Shown here in pieces: positions 38,891 to 47,495 of a stretch of DNA of 64,000 nucleotides (position 1 is its first letter; each line of letters begins with the position of its first letter). This DNA is from Akanthomyces muscarius (Eukaryota; Ascomycota; Sordariomycetes; Hypocreales; Cordycipitaceae). The position numbers and the translations under genes were made by a program. The stretch lies in assembly GCF_028009165.1 (NCBI RefSeq), contig NC_079241.1:6882001-6946000 (forward strand), written 5' to 3'. The notes under the pieces were generated by a model. It was not told the origin of the DNA. It saw only the letters and a list, made by a program, of their open reading frames with translations, and did not search any database.

Positions 38891-39790
38891 GGTAGTGGGC
38901 TCTCGCTCTGCCCACGGCTTGCGGCCGACGGTATGGAAGCGCAGTGCAAGGTCAGCCAGGATGGGGTGGAAGCAAAAGGAAAAGAGGTGAGCATGAGGAC
39001 CAAACTGAGATATCAGTAAGCCGTTGAGGTGGCGCATATTTTATGCCGGTTCGTTCGTTAGCGTGCGCCTTTCAGGACGAGAGTCGTGTAAGTCCGATGT
39101 CAGCACCGCAGCATGTGCCATCCAAGTACGCCTTTCCCGCGACGCTCTGCAGCAGCTTGGCGACTGCCTCTAACATTTGAGCATCATCGCGTGTTTCTGT
39201 CGCATAAGGGCGTCCATACAGAGATGGAATCTCATATTAACATCACTTAAGTAAAGCCAAAAAAAAAAAAATAGTTGTGGTTCAGCTATAACACCACTCC
39301 TTTTACATTCTACCCGTATAAACTTCATTAGCCTGTCATTGCTCAAGTTCTGTGGCACAAAGGGCGTAATGCGAACTGTTCATAGTGGACCTGTATTATT
39401 CGGAATTCGGAATTTCAAATCTACTTTTACTAGTATTACTTTGCCTACTCTCTTCTTGTTTTTGCCAAGTAAAAATAGGCTTCCTGAACTCCGTAACGTA
39501 GTGATTTGTGGAGCGAGTTCCGACTGGCCAGCCCTGACTAGGGCCTCTGCTAGGCTGATACTTCTGTATCGGGATACAGTAGTTAGACGCCTTAATTCTT
39601 GGTATTCAGTTTTTGCTCATCCGCGGATTGGAGTCAAGGACTCTGCACCAGGGTATTAGCGAGACCTGGAAGACGTGAACTTCGGAGGCGGAAACTGTAC
39701 AGGCCGCGCTAAAATTTTCAGTCTGGCGGGGACAAAAGATACGAACCGGGCAAGCTGCCGCGTGATTGCCTGAGGCTGTTCTGAGCACTA
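38891..39790. other. Upstream region of the ankyrin gene, left flank of the element
   Basis: About 900 bases that become more AT-rich towards the element. They include the ankyrin-gene promoter and a poly-A run near 39259-39271. No gene was recognised. A B-box-like GGTTCG on the minus strand near 39740 is not part of a foldable tRNA. Confidence 0.55.
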
Positions 39791-39845
39791 AGCTCACTGG
39801 TGGTGGTGGCGAAGCTATTAGAGGCTAGGGTGGGGCAAAAAGCGG
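39791..39845 (+). repeat. Left terminal inverted repeat
   Basis: The first 50 bases match the reverse complement of 47312-47361 at 43 positions by my alignment. The shared core includes CTCACTGGTGGTGGT, AAGCTATTA and GGTGGGGCAAAA. Both arms then reach AGCGG, with an 8-base length difference. Confidence 0.85.
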
Positions 39846-40128
39846 CAGAAAAATGATTCTCTGCTATAAATGCTCTATATATACAAGGTACCCGCCTTTT
39901 CACTCAAATTAGTATATGCCTCTTTATTACTCTAATCTAAAGTTAATCTGAGTAATAGATAATAAAAAAGATTATAATGAATTCACTTCCTTTAAGATAC
40001 CTCACGTGCCCTAGCTAGTGCTTAGGAACAATTAACTTATATACCTAGATCCTACTCCTCTTCTCCTTTCTCTCTTCTTCATCATTATCAAATTCTATAT
40101 ACAGGCCCTGCCCCTAAAGCAAGCACCT

Positions 40129-43100
40129 AGTATATACTGACTAGATAGGTAGTAGATATATAATAACTATACGCGCCCCCCCGCTATTATTAAAGGTAAG
40201 TTTACCCCTATTCCTAAAGTACACTTAGTATATACTAATAAATATAGATAGATTCTTTTAGAAGTAAGTTTTTATATAGTATAATAACTTAAATATATAC
40301 TAAGTATATACCTAGCAACTTTTACTAACTAGGAGCTAGTTAACTATATTAGGGCACCTAATAAGATAGCCCTTAGTATCCACTATAGTAAGCATAAGTT
40401 AAGTATATACTTAAAGCCTATATACTAATTTTTTTCTAGGCGATATAGGCATTAAAGGCCACCCCCCCCCCCCTCTATAAGCTTCCTATTAACTAATTCT
40501 AAGTATATACTAACTAATTTTCTTAGGCTTAATTTAGATCACTAAGGTTAACACTATAGTATAAGTAATACTAAGTATAAATATATACCTAGCTAATTCT
40601 TAAAAGGTGTAGCGTTAAGAATAAGCTTAGCGTTATATATAGCACTATAATTACCTACTTAGGTAACTCTAGCTAAGTAAGTGTTACGTATCTTCTAGGT
40701 ATATACTAGGCTAATAAAAAAAATAGATAAAGAAGCATATTAAGACGATATATAGCTTTAACTATAAGTAAGCCTAAGTAAGTTCTAAATATATACTAAT
40801 ATTAGTAGCCGTTTCCTCTAGTTAATATAACTTAACTACCACTAATAAGGCCACCGCCTACTAGTAAGTAGTTTTAGGCTAATACTAAGTATATACTGAC
40901 CTGTAATAGCTCCCTCCTCTAATATGTCCTCTCCTAAGAGTAGAAAAGGGCCGCCTTCCTAGACGAGCCTAGGTAAGTAAAAGAAACCGTCTAAGTATAT
41001 ACTAAGCTAATAACCTCTAGTACCAGTCCCCTTAACGGCCTAATCTAAAAGATTATAGATTTTCTAGAGGCTAAGGTATAAGTAGAGAATCCTATATAAA
41101 TAAGCTAAGCATATACTAATTAATATTAGTCACGTTAATCCCGTCTAACACGCTATAACTAGCAATAAGACTAGTTATTTCCACTACTCCCCGCCTACTA
41201 TAAGTTTTAGTCTAAGTATATACTAAGTACTTAAGATAATAATACTTTTTCTAGGCGTAGACTACCCTACGTAAACACGGTTATAGTGTAAGTATTAATT
41301 ACTACAAATATATACTAAGTATATACTAATAAGGAATAGGCTGCTATCCTAGACCGCTCCCCCTCCCCCTCCTAGGGCCCCCCCTATAAGTATCTAAGTA
41401 TATACTTATAAGGTTCTAGGCTAACCCTTAATAAATAGCCCTATTAAAGAAGCGCCGCCTTAATAAGGCGGCTATAAGCACTAAGGGTGCCGCCCCTAGT
41501 AAGTAGTACGCTAAGTATATACTAATAGTATTCTAATAATTAATAGCTGCTATACACACCTCTACACGCTAGGCCTAGCCTTCTAAGAAGGCTGCCGCTA
41601 ATAAGGCCTAAGTATATACTTAGCCTTTCTTTAAGACTTAGATAGTTTTTTACTTTATTATTTTTATAAATTTTAGGAGGGTACTTAGTATATACTAAGA
41701 GGTAGGCGGTAATATTTTTATTCCTAGTAAGTAAACTAGAAGGATACCCTTAGTATATACTGAAAAATAAAAAGTTATTTCCTAATCTTTTCTATCCCTT
41801 ATATATATATTATAAGTATATACTAAAAGATTTAAATAGCTATAGGCTACTAGCTACGCCTAGCTAGCGTAAGGCAGGCAGGCTACCCTACAGACCGTAC
41901 AGCAAGGCAGTTAACTTTTTTTCAGTATATACTAAAATCCTAAGGCGTAATATAGCCTCTAACAGGCAGTTATCTTTTTCAATATATACTAAAATTCTAA
42001 TATATAATATAGGCTAGTAGTAGGCAGGCAGCCCCTAGACACTTACTAGGTTATTTTATAATCTAGTATATACTTACTATAAGTTATACTTACTATAAAG
42101 ATATTTCTATATAGAGGAAAAATATATAAGCTATAGATTAATAATAATCCGTCCCGCCTAGTATAGAAATTAATTAGGTATATACCCCTCTTCCTCCTTA
42201 TATCTTCTATTAAGATTCCTATAAGATAGCGTGATAACTTCTATTAGAGTATATAGATATTAATATAATAAATATATTAAATTTATTAAAGTTTAGCTTT
42301 TATTATAGTTAGAATATTTATATTACTTTATTAGTATATACTAACTCTATTTTAAGACTAGTTAAGAAGAAAAACATATAAATTCTCTCTTATGTTAACA
42401 CACATATTTATAATATTATTATTAATAGTACTAGTAGAATATATAGAAGGGTATATACTAAGAATATGAATATAGGTAGCCTAATATATACTAGGCGCTT
42501 ATTAGGGATATACTTATTAAATACTTTAGTTTTATTGTTATATTTAAACAGTATATCCTTACTATATCCGCCTCCTAAATAAGGCAAATATATTAGATAA
42601 AGAACGCCTAATTAGAGAGAAGTAAGTATTCTTTTAGAATAGACGTAATATATACTTATACTTAGTAGTACTATTCGCGCCTAGGTTCTTAATAGCGGTT
42701 AGCGTAATACTTAGTACTAATATAAGCTAAAAAACCTACTAAAGACCTCATTTTTATATAAGGTAACGACTAAGCTTAAGTATCTTATATAAATATCTAC
42801 TATTTATATTATACGTATATACTAATAATCTTATAGCTAATAAGACCTAGTATTTATATAGGAATATAGTAGATAATTCTATCGTTTAAGTTTCTAATAG
42901 ATATTATTTAAAAATATATTTAACACACTATATATATATACTTATAGTGTGCTAGTCTCTCCCATATTAGATCCTATAAGCATATAATTAGAGTGGGATT
43001 AAACTAGCATATACTTAGATAACAGTCAACTAGACACTACAATTAACACAGACTCCTCACTTAAGGACACAGCTAGAATGTATATAGCTAGCAGTCAGTA

Positions 43101-46100
43101 TATACCTAAGGATATTACCTCTATAAAGTCCGTAATAAGAGTTAATAAGTCGTAGAGTATATACTATATAACTACTTTACCTAAAAAGACTACCTAGGCT
43201 TTATAAAAGTTATTATAAGTAAGCCACTTAGTATTTTCCTAGTATATACTTATTTAATATCTAATTTTTAATCTAGTATAAAAAAATAAAAAAAAACTAG
43301 CTTATTCTTTTTTCCTTTCCTATATATAAATTAGTTAAGTATCTTTTAAAACTATCTTAAGTATATACCTTATTTAAGTCTTTAACACTTTTCTTTTATA
43401 TATTAAATATCCTCTTAAATAAGATCTTTATACTCCTCTCTAACTACCTTCTACTATAAAAGAAGTACAGAAATCTTAACATTATTAAATTAATCTATCT
43501 CTAGTATATACTAGGGCCGTTTTAGTTATAGAGATATCTAAGAAATTAATAGTAGTAAGCACGTTACTAATAAGCTTAAGCGATCCCGTTTTTATTATTA
43601 TAGTGTTTTTAGTTCCTAGAGAAAGTTAGTCCTAAGAATATACCTATATTATATCTATTACTTACTAGTTTATAATCTATATTAGTAATTAGTCTAATAC
43701 GGCTTAGTATTAAAGCTCTTATACTAATAATTAATAGATTATTATCCTAGTATATACCTACGGCTAGGACTATAGATAGATTAATTATTTCTAACTAATT
43801 ACTATCTAATAGGCTATTAAGCTTAATTATAGTTATATACCTAACTAGTACTAGTACTATAAGAGACTCTAATAATATAGTTAATACCCTATTAGTTTTA
43901 GGCGTATACCTACTAACTGCTAAGGAGGGCTAGGGCGTACCTATCCCCTATATTTATAGATATACTAGTTATTATATAGATATATACTCTACTAATATCT
44001 ACGTATCTTCTTATAGTATATTTTATAGTAATAAAGTAGGTAGTGTTATATATATATTCTTAGTATTATATAGGCCTATATTATTAGCCTATATTATATA
44101 TTATAATAAAAAGATTGCCGGTATATACTTAGAACCTATTAAGGACGGGGGCTTAGAGGGTTATAAGGATCTTTATAGGATAGGAGTTATTAGTGTATTA
44201 GAGGCATATACTAACATAGGGCTTAAGCCTTTAGGTTAAACATAGTAAGGATTCTATAAGTTAAGGGGTAGGTTTAGCTAAGAGATACGTTAATCTTATA
44301 CTATACGATTAGTAGTATCTCGTTAAAGATATACTTAGCTTATATAGGCAACAGGCCCTTAATTATGCTATATTACTGCTACTCCTAGGTCTATTTATAT
44401 TTAGACCTTAAAGCATTTCTCTAGCACATACTAATATAGCCCTAGGATACCTAATAGTAGGCTATAGTGCTATCCTATAGCAGAGTAGTCTTCCTAATAG
44501 CTACTCTCTATAATATTTGTATTCTTCTAAGTATATAATCGCTATTTTAGAGGCACCTTTAAGGCACTTATAATAAGCCTAGTAATAACCTAAAGAGCTA
44601 TTTTTACTTTAAACTAACTTACTCTCTTAGGGTGTGCCTTAATAAGCTAATATACTTCCTTATTATAGATCTTAGTAGATAGTAAGTCTAAGAGTGATAT
44701 ATATATATACTTATTAAGAGCATTAAGATAGTTATATCGCTAGTTCTATTAGATATATACCTAGTAGAAGATAAGTATATACTCTAAATGTTCTTACTAG
44801 GTCTATTATAAATTAAGACTTTATAGGTAATTACTAAGTCCTAATAATATTAGCTATATTCTCTATATATACTATATAGCTACTTACTATATACTTACTT
44901 CCTATCTATATCTATCGTCACTATATAGAATATAAAAGGAGGTCTTCTATATAGTATATACTTAAGATAGTGCTAGCGTATACTAAAGCCACTAATATCA
45001 CTAAGCCACTAAAACATTACTATAAACATCTATTTAGATTAGTAGTGTCTTAGGTATATACTAGGCACTTACTTATATTAGTATATACCTTTATAGTTAT
45101 AATTATTATTATAGTATAAATATATATTTTATAAACTAGATATATAGGTTAGAGATAGGTATTATTTAGACTAGGTATATACTTATAATTAGAAGTGTTA
45201 TTCTAGCTTAAAATACTAAAAATATTTACTTTCCTTTAAATTATCTTAAAAGATAAATTAATTTATATATATCTTACCTTCTAAGTAGTAAAAGCCTAGC
45301 TTTTTAAGCATATAATAATCTAATACTTAGAGCTATAGAATTTAATCTTATATATCTATTACTAGTTTAGCTTACAGATTTAGTTAAGGCAGAATTCTTA
45401 TTATACACCTAGTATAGTTAGTATATATACCTATAACATTCTAAATAGCACTTACCTATAATATTATTACCCTTAGGGTATTTAAGGAATTATATATATA
45501 TAAGTATTATATATATTTTATCCTTATAATTTAATACTAGATAGATACTCTAAATATTCTTAGCCTTATATTTTTTAAGGAATTTATTAAGTAAAGGGCT
45601 TAAAAATATTTTCCCTATAAGGTATATTATTAGTATATACTTTAAATAGTATAGAATAATACTTATAAGCAGTTAGATATAATAAATTATCTCGCTTAAA
45701 GAGGGTATAAATAAGATGTTTAAGAATATCTTATAGTATGTTTTTTAGTAGCGGTAGAATGTAGGTATAGATATTATGTATACTAAATATATACTAAGAG
45801 AAACGGCAGTTATTAATTAGTATATAGACGTTAAATTTAATATAATAACTATATAGACGTAGGCGGGATATATCCTTATACTAAAATACTATATATTATT
45901 AGTATATACTTACTCTATATTCTATATATTCTTATTACTTACTATAGTCCTTTCTCTATATATTTAAGGCATCCTAAAAAGAGTAAGTATTATATAGAGG
46001 CTCCTTAGGCTCGTATAACCTATACTTAACTATATACTAAAGATATACTAGGTTAATATTACTAATAATAACTTAGAGCTATATATGCTAACAGGCCTTA

Positions 46101-47235
46101 TTTAATATTTATAGACAGCTAATAAAGTACTACCTGTTAGTCTAGACCTAGGTTATTAGTTACTCTTTATAGTATATACCTAGTAGACTCTTAGGGTCTT
46201 CTAATATAGAGAGTAGCTAATAAGGGCGTTATAAACTATCTTATATCTTCTTATATACTAGGTATACTACTTCTATCTTTATTTATATATGTTCGTTAAT
46301 CTTTATAGTATTAATACTTATAGTATATATTTAGCGTATATAGCTAATATTCTCTAGGTTAAAACTATTATTCTAGTCGTCTTAGTAGGTTATAAGATCT
46401 TATTTGATTTTTAAGTAGACTTATATTCTAGTATATTTAAAGGCTATATACTAGCACTATACCTACACTCCTTTTCTAAATATCTACTCCCTATCTCTAG
46501 TCAGTATATACTTAATATCTATACACTTAAAGAATTTACTTATAAGAATACTAAAAAAACAGTTATATATTTACTAACCTAAGTTAAACTAAACTATACC
46601 TAGTAGATAGTAAGTATAATACTAATATATACCTAGTATTACTTATAATACTTATTTACTCTTATATAAAGTTTATCACTTCCTTAACCTTATTACTAGT
46701 ATATATTAGGGATATATTTAGTATAATATATACTAATCTATCTATTAATACTTTTAGATAGCTTAGAAGAGTAATATAATTAATCACTTTATAAACACTT
46801 ATAGTACACACTCTATACCCACTAAGTATAAGCCTAGACTCTTTAATAATCTCTTTTAGGATATTAAAAAAGCTTATAGGGTTATCGTCTTTAAGAGTAT
46901 TAGCGAATAGGTCCTTAATATTATTAGTATATACCTAGAGCCTTATTAGGGTATTCTTACCTTATTATACTAAAATAGCTACCCTTAAAGGTTTACCGCG
47001 CTTAACTCTAATAATAATATTATATAATAATATTAAAGTTGATTTTTATTATATAATACTAGTATATATATAGTATATATAAGGCTTATATGCTTTATTA
47101 TTTTTCTCCTTATTATCTCTTCACTTAATTTTCTGACTGTCTTTTACGCTATAGTATAAGAATTCTTCTATACCGTATTTATAGCTAGGGGCATATATAG
47201 AGCTAGCTGCTAGTATATATATAGCGTATATAGAT
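40129..47235 (+). repeat. Dispersed palindromic decamer array (AGTATATACT)
   Basis: By eye about 65-70 copies of AGTATATACT or one- to two-base variants are scattered through the element. In the first 2.5 kb the TATATAC core starts at 40131, 40229, 40294, 40305, 40404, 40419, 40504, 40582, 40700, 40790, 40890, 40996, 41110, 41217, 41309, 41320, 41399, 41516, 41613, 41689, 41754, 41817, 41926, 41983, 42067 and 42179. Intervals are mostly 60-120 bp with a few close pairs 11-15 bp apart. The sequence between copies is not repeated. Copies are sparser towards the right. Confidence 0.85.
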
Positions 47236-47298
47236 AAGCTTTCCGATAAGCGTATAGTATGTCTATTATATATACATTATATATACGGTTAACACTTA

Positions 47299-47361
47299 CC
47301 GCTTTTTGCCTTTTTGCCCCACCTGAACCTTTAATAGCTTTACGACCACCACCAGTGAGCT
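47299..47361 (-). repeat. Right terminal inverted repeat
   Basis: This is the partner of 39791-39845. It contains an extra 8 bases through a local duplication (CTTTTTGCC followed by TTTTTGCCCC). Five of the seven mismatches with the left arm are C/T or G/A, and in each the right arm carries the T or A, as RIP would leave it. Confidence 0.85.
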
Positions 47362-47495
47362 AGTCCCCCGGCTGTTCTTGACTACAATACGTTCAGGATA
47401 AAGAAAGGTTTTTCCAATTATCTACTTTCAAATAAACGGCGCTTTAAATCCATCAAGTATGGAACGGTGAAGCGCTTATAGACAAGAGCATTGCC

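Follow-up and report, generated by a model that had tools for sequence, protein, structure and literature searches.

Several described systems come close to the one reported here. Hop is a transposon with terminal inverted repeats (TIRs) and a 9-bp target-site duplication (TSD), Mutyl has Yarrowia as its host, and introners are copies of whole introns that appear at new positions in many genes. A comparable layout is that of the VANDAL elements of Arabidopsis. In the accessible part of its description, the anti-silencing protein VANC21 binds arrays of the motif YAGTATTAY that a Mutator-class element carries in its introns and in its spacers (PMC5735166); the original prediction, to which no described element laid out like our locus was known, is to be corrected on this point. 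The literature that we consulted, largely without subscription journals, contains no description of the present element or of its array, and no fungal transposon is found among the matches listed for GCATATGC, the word of which the array is made.

The window, i.e. the whole stretch of 64,000 nucleotides that was analysed, comes from the insect-killing fungus Akanthomyces muscarius. It holds one copy, damaged by RIP, of a 7.6-kb DNA transposon, with the following boundaries:

39783..47369, plus strand: RIP-damaged transposon copy, with ends GAGCACTAAGCTCACTGG...CCAGTGAGCTAGTCCCCC, delimited by alignment with five full copies
39774..39782, no strand: left TSD GGCTGTTCT, 9-bp direct repeat flanking the element
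47370..47378, no strand: right TSD GGCTGTTCT, 9-bp direct repeat flanking the element
39791..39842, plus strand: left TIR, 52-bp core, 87% complementary to 47310-47361
47310..47361, minus strand: right TIR, 52-bp core, 87% complementary to 39791-39842
39866..39884, no strand: left subterminal motif pair with 11-bp spacing, GCAGATGC and GCATATGC in the other copies
47191..47286, no strand: right subterminal motif cluster, where the other copies have exact pairs 22 bp and 11 bp apart (ancestral site starts 47191, 47213, 47268 and 47279)

The interval 40129..47235 that had first drawn attention was slightly short of this whole element and its TSDs. Five further full copies (C2, C3, C6 and two in C4, named C4a and C4b), about 82% identical to that of the window, are undamaged or nearly so. 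All six full copies display a 9-bp TSD, the length of which is ambiguous in C4b through the terminal Cs of the element, and each of the five is flanked by a TSD different from that of the window copy. The TIRs, imperfect and about 52 bp long, contain CACTG. A 278-bp fragment of the left end is present in C10, where it keeps the closely spaced motif pair at one mismatch.

The window copy is a RIP-mutated repeat. When it is compared with the full copies, 1362 of 1375 substitutions are C to T or G to A; mutation affected 416 of 526 CpA (79%) and 498 of 553 TpG (90%), as well as CpG (174/291 and 184/291), and the transposase gene is left with many in-frame stops. It is in this damaged context that the decamer AGTATATACT was noticed. 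At no more than one mismatch it occurs 54 times in the window, always within 40129-46935, against a mean of 1.17 and a maximum of 4 when the whole window was dinucleotide-shuffled 100 times. Within the element we count 25 perfect decamers, 54 at up to one mismatch and 99 at up to two, while 200 shuffles of the element itself give a mean of 0.58 perfect ones and a maximum of 3. The decamer array announced by the original prediction is thus real, and where about 28 copies had been seen in the first 2.5 kb we count 27 at up to one mismatch; the overall figure of 65-70, by contrast, hangs on the mismatch rule that is chosen.

The decamer had also been taken for the functional sequence, and this it is not: it is the RIP product of GCATATGC. 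None of the 45 exact GCATATGC sites survives in the window copy, 30 of them having been turned into GTATATAC. At the 25 places of the perfect decamer, the core in copy C4a is an exact GCATATGC 22 times and departs from it by one mismatch three times; among the 54 decamers at up to one mismatch, 46 derive from sites zero or one mismatch away from GCATATGC, and the remaining eight from more distant ones, with two or three mismatches. No protection of the motif from RIP was seen in the window copy, its cytosines being mutated at least as often as other cytosines (43/49 and 49/49, against 373/476 and 449/504). RIP makes the site array look like a different, TA-rich array, and undamaged copies are needed for reading arrays in RIPped DNA.

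In the undamaged copies the array word is a palindromic 8-mer, mostly embedded in RGCATATGCY. Each copy has 45-46 exact GCATATGC, against 0.3 expected from shuffles of the copies, and 80-81 at up to one mismatch, against about 6; the second commonest palindromic 8-mer of C4b occurs twice. More than 4 bp away from the core the flanks are nearly free of information (no position exceeds 0.17 bits), so what repeats is the site itself, and the absence of any common unit beyond it bears out the view that this is not a simple satellite. The 22 ancestral sites of the left array are spaced by 92.1 bp on average (sd 17.8 bp, CV 0.19, against 0.93 for random placement), in agreement with the intervals, mostly of 60-120 bp, reported at first. 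Close pairs are 11 bp (six), 22 bp (three) or 35 bp (three) apart, and those spaced by 11 bp are found near both ends of the element. A non-random palindromic array with subterminal sites in a mobile element, as had been proposed, is indeed what we see. The densest part of the array is the left 2 kb rather than both ends symmetrically, and a search for 10-11 bp phasing over the whole array gave no clear signal (R 0.10-0.29).

The genome contains 831 exact GCATATGC, of which 227 belong to the five copies, which make up about 0.1% of the genome; the remaining 604, in about 36.15 Mb, compare with about 550 at a uniform 4^-8. Two sites 60-90 bp apart lie in the transposon family in 48 of the 50 places listed (60 were counted). 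The dense array is specific to the element and occupies its introns and spacers, as in VANC-type arrays. A host-wide splicing signal is rejected, GCATATGC being near uniform expectation outside the family. A centromere, an origin or a heterochromatin array is likewise unsupported, closely spaced sites being nearly confined to one transposon family, and the origin-like or heterochromatin nucleation array once suggested finds no support from the sequence.

Three intron-rich genes occupy the region of the array:

40130..42073, no strand: dense left array of 22 sites, exact GCATATGC in C4b, all mutated in the window
40248..41611, plus strand: remains of gene plus1, with 14 exons and 13 introns in C4b, 238 aa, zinc-finger-like
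41612..42073, no strand: gene-free stretch from plus1 to plus2, motif spacings of 76, 65, 63, 109, 56 and 84 bp
42226..43360, plus strand: remains of gene plus2, with 7 exons and 6 introns in C4b, a 269-aa paralog of plus1
43346..47023, minus strand: remains of the transposase gene, with 11 exons and 10 introns, 1062 aa in C4b

The interpretation as a site array needs to be completed accordingly: the region is also genic, and an exon plus an intron of about 50 bp accounts for much of the quasi-regular pitch. Between plus1 and plus2, where there is no gene, the spacing nevertheless stays even (7 intervals, CV 0.23), and a 56-bp unit with one motif from this stretch is absent from copies C6 and C2. 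Exact GCATATGC sites reach 13.7 per kb in introns, 10.5 in gene-free DNA and 2.1 in exons. Plus1 crowds 13 introns within a reading frame of 717 bp, with one exact site in each of them and none in its exons. Altogether 28 of 29 modelled introns bear a site at up to one mismatch, where this density would predict 18.7 (Poisson P 5e-5). In the gene models, given for copy C4b, the splice choice rewarded branch-like CTRAC, and the motif often lies right next to such a sequence. Among the three genes an independent model exists for plus1 only, the NCBI protein LMH87_011223, 98% identical to it over 100%. Spacers hold exact sites as well, and so do exons at ten places, in codon phases 0, 1 and 2 in two, four and four cases; the exonic counts are 4 and 6, where synonymous shuffling gives 0.5 and 1.8 on average, and because shuffling of the transposase exons also reached 6, their excess over the level implied by the protein is weak.

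The plus1 and plus2 proteins are 26% identical, and four of the six introns of plus2 agree with those of plus1 in position and phase; all eight introns at these four shared positions bear the motif, six exactly and two with one mismatch. We probably deal with paralogous zinc-finger proteins: plus2 matches PF00096 (C2H2) below threshold (E 0.0074, 17.1 bits against a cut-off of 25.2) and plus1 has a basic, AT-hook-like tail, although its Pfam scan (E≤1) returned no zinc finger, and the two scans together gave this sub-threshold C2H2 match and one to Pinin. With its coding parts made of a transposase and two zinc-finger-like genes, the region is, as had been argued, not a decayed repeat-protein gene. 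The zinc-finger alignment, used to search proteins, retrieved P0003 only, without recovering P0004, which has its locus in Gnomoniopsis. At the thresholds used, with the best candidates scored, no diverged relative of the three genes was found in the A. muscarius genome except for two weak 57-residue matches to the transposase (33%, E 0.009), and viral contigs gave no relatives.

The transposase is colinear with two remote relatives, P0001 and P0002, 33-40% identical (39-40% over the region searched), and D491, D574, E693 and C607/H610 are invariant in the three sequences. The transposase may be DDE-like, and is unclassified. None of the three has a Pfam match at E≤1, PF10551 included, and no solved structure matches the alignment of the transposase at E≤1. 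Of the two AlphaFold models, neither is good enough for use (mean pLDDT 40.5 and, for P0001, 33.2). The A. muscarius genome has four matches to PF10551 MULEs, and hhalign of the transposase family against 345 residues of a host MULE ORF (one sequence entered twice as a profile) gives a probability of 0.1%. The 9-bp TSD falls within the 8-11 bp range of MULEs stated in the accessible text of PMC6446971, and the 52-bp TIRs, 87% complementary, are also as in MULEs, whereas the transposase matches neither PF10551 nor the host MULE ORF. The element would thus be MULE-like only, being a strongly diverged MULE or else a member of some different lineage with a 9-bp TSD. CACTA/EnSpm, considered for the CACTG of the TIR, is rejected, the TSD being of 9 bp and not 3. 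Lineages with TET/JBP genes, which include KDZ and Plavaka in the part consulted of PMC12730594, were considered as a possible identity through Pfam scans alone.

The remote transposases, known as peptides and not as DNA, carry what looks like a footprint of the word. Peptides that GCATATGC would encode (AYA, HM[PLHQR] or [CGRS]IC) occur nine times in each, against 0.7 and 0.8 expected, and none of 5000 shuffles reached nine. Outside the conserved core there are 4 and 5, against 0.08 and 0.14, in regions chosen after the first count; several of those within the core may be there for reasons pertaining to the protein.

We lean, if only slightly, towards an array of palindromic double-stranded DNA sites kept by selection, and probably bound for self-recognition by a protein that the element encodes, by analogy with VANC and VANDAL. 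An array of protein-binding sites, as first proposed, is the best reading, with putative sites that are not the decamer itself. GCATATGC is likely a double-stranded site for a symmetric (dimeric) protein; its presence and spacing are likely maintained by selection at the DNA level, introns and spacers being the likely cheapest places for holding sites. Less certainly, the binder would be encoded by the element, most likely as one or both of the putative zinc-finger-like paralogs, and the transposase perhaps joins at the subterminal pairs, which are candidate sites. Because the rest of the genome has single sites but almost no closely spaced ones, a protein that binds cooperatively would be confined to its own element, the chromatin of which it would keep open, or which it would mark for transposition, much as VANC acts on VANDAL. 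Since every exact site is mutated in the window, such a RIPped copy would forfeit not only its coding capacity but also its recognition. As a tentative and rather doubtful extension, this would be a fungal transposon with its own sequence-specific self-recognition, probably anti-silencing, where a paralogous zinc-finger-like pair reads a palindrome at a pitch of about 90 bp and tiny introns, unusually many of them, are kept as site carriers.

The alternative that survives best would make GCATATGC part of the transposition machinery only, a site for the transposase or an accessory protein needed at both ends, with internal copies for titration, target immunity or assembly. Subterminal repeats are present in many DNA transposons, and the closely spaced pairs near both ends, one of them kept in the C10 fragment, would suit this role; yet the sites extend over 7.6 kb and nearly every modelled intron, far beyond subterminal need, and their density in the left 2 kb is not mirrored on the right, and we see this explanation as unlikely while deserving attention. 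We find it improbable that the motif is an intronic RNA signal, associated with the branch point and tying splicing to an element-encoded factor: it is present in nearly all modelled introns and often runs into branch-site-like CTGAC/CTAAC, but gene-free DNA is similarly dense, terminal pairs and exonic copies exist, the motif lies away from the likely branch site in several introns, and a signal read on one strand would have no need of the perfect palindrome that the motif has as its core. Multiplication in the way of introners, the introns being copies of each other and the motif their common remnant, is quite improbable. Introners occur in Pezizomycotina (PMC9860276, in its accessible part), and 42 of 406 intron pairs share 7-mers outside exact motifs, against a mean of 21.4 and a maximum of 33 in shuffles, in a comparison that left one-mismatch motifs and motif flanks unmasked; this modest excess remains, but more than 4 bp away from the core little sequence is common, the split of the paralogs is younger than four of their intron positions with their phases, the motif is also in spacers and exons, and introns near-identical lengthwise at many new positions were not found. 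Finally, a pure mutational by-product, RIP yielding TATA-rich decamers in any AT-rich repeat, hardly deserves credence: this possible undoing, named by the original prediction itself, is true of the spelling AGTATATACT, with its RIP-made letters and its eight decamers from more distant sites, and refuted for the array, which stands far above shuffles in all five other full copies and from which the 46 other decamers stem.

If the doubtful extension were true, tiling at the DNA level would shape how the genes are built and, in distant relatives too, even the sequence of a protein. A question that is seldom asked also arises, whether selection for site density can keep introns and mould exons. 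For fungi, with their RIP and small genomes, this would be a possible second system where a transposon is recognised by a tiled motif and not by its ends alone. Should the zinc-finger-like proteins bind GCATATGC, the idea of motif density as a self-mark, derived from VANDAL, would become more general.

Among known systems, Hop and other PF10551 MULEs share TIRs and a 9-bp TSD with the A. muscarius element, unlike which they have a transposase with a Pfam match; ours has no profile similarity to the host MULE ORF either (345 residues). Fungal introner-like elements resemble it in their short introns with common sequence, but here the site alone is common and several intron positions are old. 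VANC is not, to our knowledge, a zinc-finger protein, whereas the accessory proteins here are zinc-finger-like; a VANC-like gene was not seen in the Pfam scan (E≤1) of plus1 and plus2. Mutyl, a MULE of yeast whose second ORF is mutB, has a C2H2 finger in the tables of its description; it differs by its two ORFs and 22-bp TIRs, and the accessible text describes no tiled motif (PMC6446971). As in VANDAL21 and Hiun, in so far as the available parts of their descriptions go (PMC5735166, PMC10398659), there are three genes and one short motif, dense in the element's own introns and spacers and forming clusters peculiar to it; motif units are gained and lost there as tandem repeats, and here one 56-bp unit differs between copies. 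The YAGTATTAY motif of VANDAL21 is not palindromic, keeps one orientation, lies mainly outside coding sequence and diverges fast (PMC5735166, same part); here the motif is a palindrome, occurs in nearly all modelled introns and in some exons, and has a peptide footprint in remote relatives, within an element that, unlike VANDAL21, has TIRs. It would be, if the doubtful extension of our reading is true, an independent and palindromic counterpart of the plant VANDAL/VANC system.

A single copy of a DNA transposon occupies positions 39783-47369 of the window. The host, whose genome measures 36.2 Mb in 12 contigs, has five further full-length copies, on contigs C2, C3, C4 (two copies, C4a and C4b) and C6, and each of the six, the window copy included, has its own 9-bp target-site duplication (TSD). 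In aligned pieces, the five other copies are 99.4-99.95% identical to one another, and about 82% identical to the window copy. Lesser remains are, on C10 (L048), a 278-bp piece of the left end that includes a subterminal motif pair and, on C11 (L049), a 70-bp stretch resembling a terminal inverted repeat (TIR), 81% like the left one.

The original prediction was that a decamer, AGTATATACT, recurs in this region far above chance. This is borne out, with 25 exact copies in the element and 54 at no more than one mismatch, where about one is expected; within the window, its occurrences are restricted to 40129-46935. With the column-wise majority of the five other copies as reference, the window copy displays 748 G->A and 614 C->T substitutions, all others amounting to 13. 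Mutated dinucleotides are CpA (416/526), TpG (498/553) and CpG (174/291 and 184/291). These changes are the work of repeat-induced point mutation (RIP). Exact copies of a palindromic octamer, GCATATGC, are the source of 34 of the 54 window decamers; one-mismatch sites account for 12 and other sequences for 8. Conversely, the 45 exact GCATATGC sites of copy C4b became GTATATAC (30), ATATATAC (9), GCATATAC (3), GTATATAT (2) and GCATATAT (1), so that exact survivors in the window copy number 0/45. Protection of the sites from RIP is not seen there.

A published A. muscarius isolate is reported to be without active RIP and without rid alleles (PMC11354060); the present genome bears a clean RIP pattern at window 39783-47369. 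The C5 DNA-methylase family PF00145 is matched at two places, C2:4639982-4641190 and C3:2362046-2362912. Copies C4a (L043) and C3 (L044), both with in-frame stops in the transposase, have roughly two dozen C->T/G->A changes in common. Many of these are at CpA, and most affect one strand and the transposase half. Since these copies differ in site and TSD yet carry the same changes, it seems that a copy already lightly RIPped, and so with transposase stops, was later mobilised, presumably in trans.

The array itself is best seen in the five other copies. Each holds 45-46 exact GCATATGC (mean 0.26-0.40, highest 4, in 200 shuffles per copy) and 80-81 at no more than one mismatch (shuffle mean 6.1-6.6, highest 17); the second commonest palindromic octamer of C4b occurs twice. 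In the symmetrised flanks, R is favoured at position -1 and T at -3, and positions beyond -4 contain no more than 0.17 bits. The 22 exact sites of the left array are spaced by 92.1 +/- 17.8 bp, a CV of 0.19 where random placement gives 0.93 (0.1% quantile 0.53). Among sites with up to one mismatch, distances of 40 bp or less are 11 bp (six times), 22 bp and 35 bp (three times each), and 6, 24, 33 and 36 bp (once each); several 11-bp pairs lie close to both element ends. No clear helical phasing extends over the whole array (R 0.10-0.29, periods 10-11). Genome-wide, 227 of 831 exact GCATATGC fall inside the five copies. The reversed word, a control containing two CpG, occurs 224 times. The 11-bp pair pattern, at up to two mismatches, gives 59 forward matches against 5 for its reversed control, and two sites 60-90 bp apart give 60 against 0; among the 50 places listed of these 60, 48 belong to the family, a separate count within the copies giving 55. 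A 56-bp unit with one GCATATGC (el 2137-2192 of C4a), with a similar unit after it in the copies that have it, is absent from C6 (L046) and C2 (L047): one site has visibly been gained or lost.

Three open genes were modelled on copy C4b (L045), between the inverted ends.

Features of the element (genes as modelled on copy C4b)
Ends: imperfect inverted, 52-bp core, 87%
plus1: 14 exons, 238 aa
plus2: 7 exons, 269 aa
Transposase: 11 exons, 1062 aa, strand opposite plus1 and plus2

The last exons of transposase and plus2 overlap by about 15 bp. Over 100% of its length the plus1 protein shares 98% identity with LMH87_011223 (Akanthomyces muscarius), an independent NCBI model that ours matches except in a few N-terminal and splice-junction residues; for plus2 and the transposase the models are based on homology, open frames and splice signals. 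The transposase model is colinear with two remote relatives, P0001 (34% overall) and P0002 (33% overall), identity rising to 40% and 39% over residues 330-760. The proteins plus1, plus2 and P0004 (from Gnomoniopsis) align as a single family with a C...CG...HIxxxH core. C2H2 matches of plus2 and P0004 are sub-threshold, and the Pfam scan found none in plus1. The plus1 string TPRKRGRG is AT-hook-like; no profile supports an AT-hook there.

In these gene models, 20 of the 29 introns contain an exact GCATATGC, and 28 a site with at most one mismatch (plus1 13/13, plus2 5/6, transposase 10/10), against 18.7 expected from equal-density Poisson scatter (P 5e-5). Exact sites reach 13.7/kb in introns, 10.5/kb in gene-free DNA and 2.1/kb in exons. 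All three codon phases are represented among the ten exonic sites, and therefore the constraint acts on DNA, not on one peptide. Synonymous shuffling yields a mean of 0.5 (maximum 3) for the four sites of plus2 and 1.8 (maximum 6) for the six of the transposase. Four of the six plus2 introns match plus1 introns in alignment column and phase; a fifth is one column off, in another phase, and the sixth has no partner. The motif is found in 8/8 introns of the four paralogous pairs (exact in 6); its offset clearly differs within three of the pairs and is nearly equal within the fourth. This fits old introns that would have kept a site, by conservation or replacement.

P0001 and P0002, whose source tag lgn we take to mean assembled public reads, were compared at the peptide level. 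Each contains nine peptides of the kinds encoded by GCATATGC (shuffles 0.70 and 0.79), of which 4 and 5 lie in poorly conserved ends (expected 0.08 and 0.14), regions picked after the first peptide count. These counts suggest, short of proof, that distant relatives may be tiled with the same word.

As for its family, the element fits a MULE-like assignment, its TSD and TIRs being compatible with Mutator-like elements. We say MULE-like rather than MULE because, although these features agree, no Pfam family is matched by the transposase, and its family profile has no similarity to the part of one ORF compared from a host PF10551 element. At C3:344000-346400 of G000 (L050) lies a host MULE whose open reading frame matches PF10551, one of four genome matches.

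The motif is best read as a predicted site for a dimeric DNA-binding protein, because it is palindromic, evenly tiled, constrained at the DNA level, common in non-coding sequence and also found in coding sequence. Both the binder and the effect of binding we infer by analogy: the plus1/plus2 proteins would recognise the array and mark the transposon, and the subterminal pairs might perhaps also be used in transposition. Against this mechanism stand the sub-threshold zinc-finger matches, structure models that proved unusable, the lack of protection from RIP in the window copy, and that of helical phasing over the whole array. The nearest tested precedent for the GCATATGC array is VANC21 of Arabidopsis VANDAL21, which binds YAGTATTAY motifs densely arrayed in its own element, within introns and spacers, and causes derepression as well as loss of DNA methylation (PMC5735166, PMC10398659).
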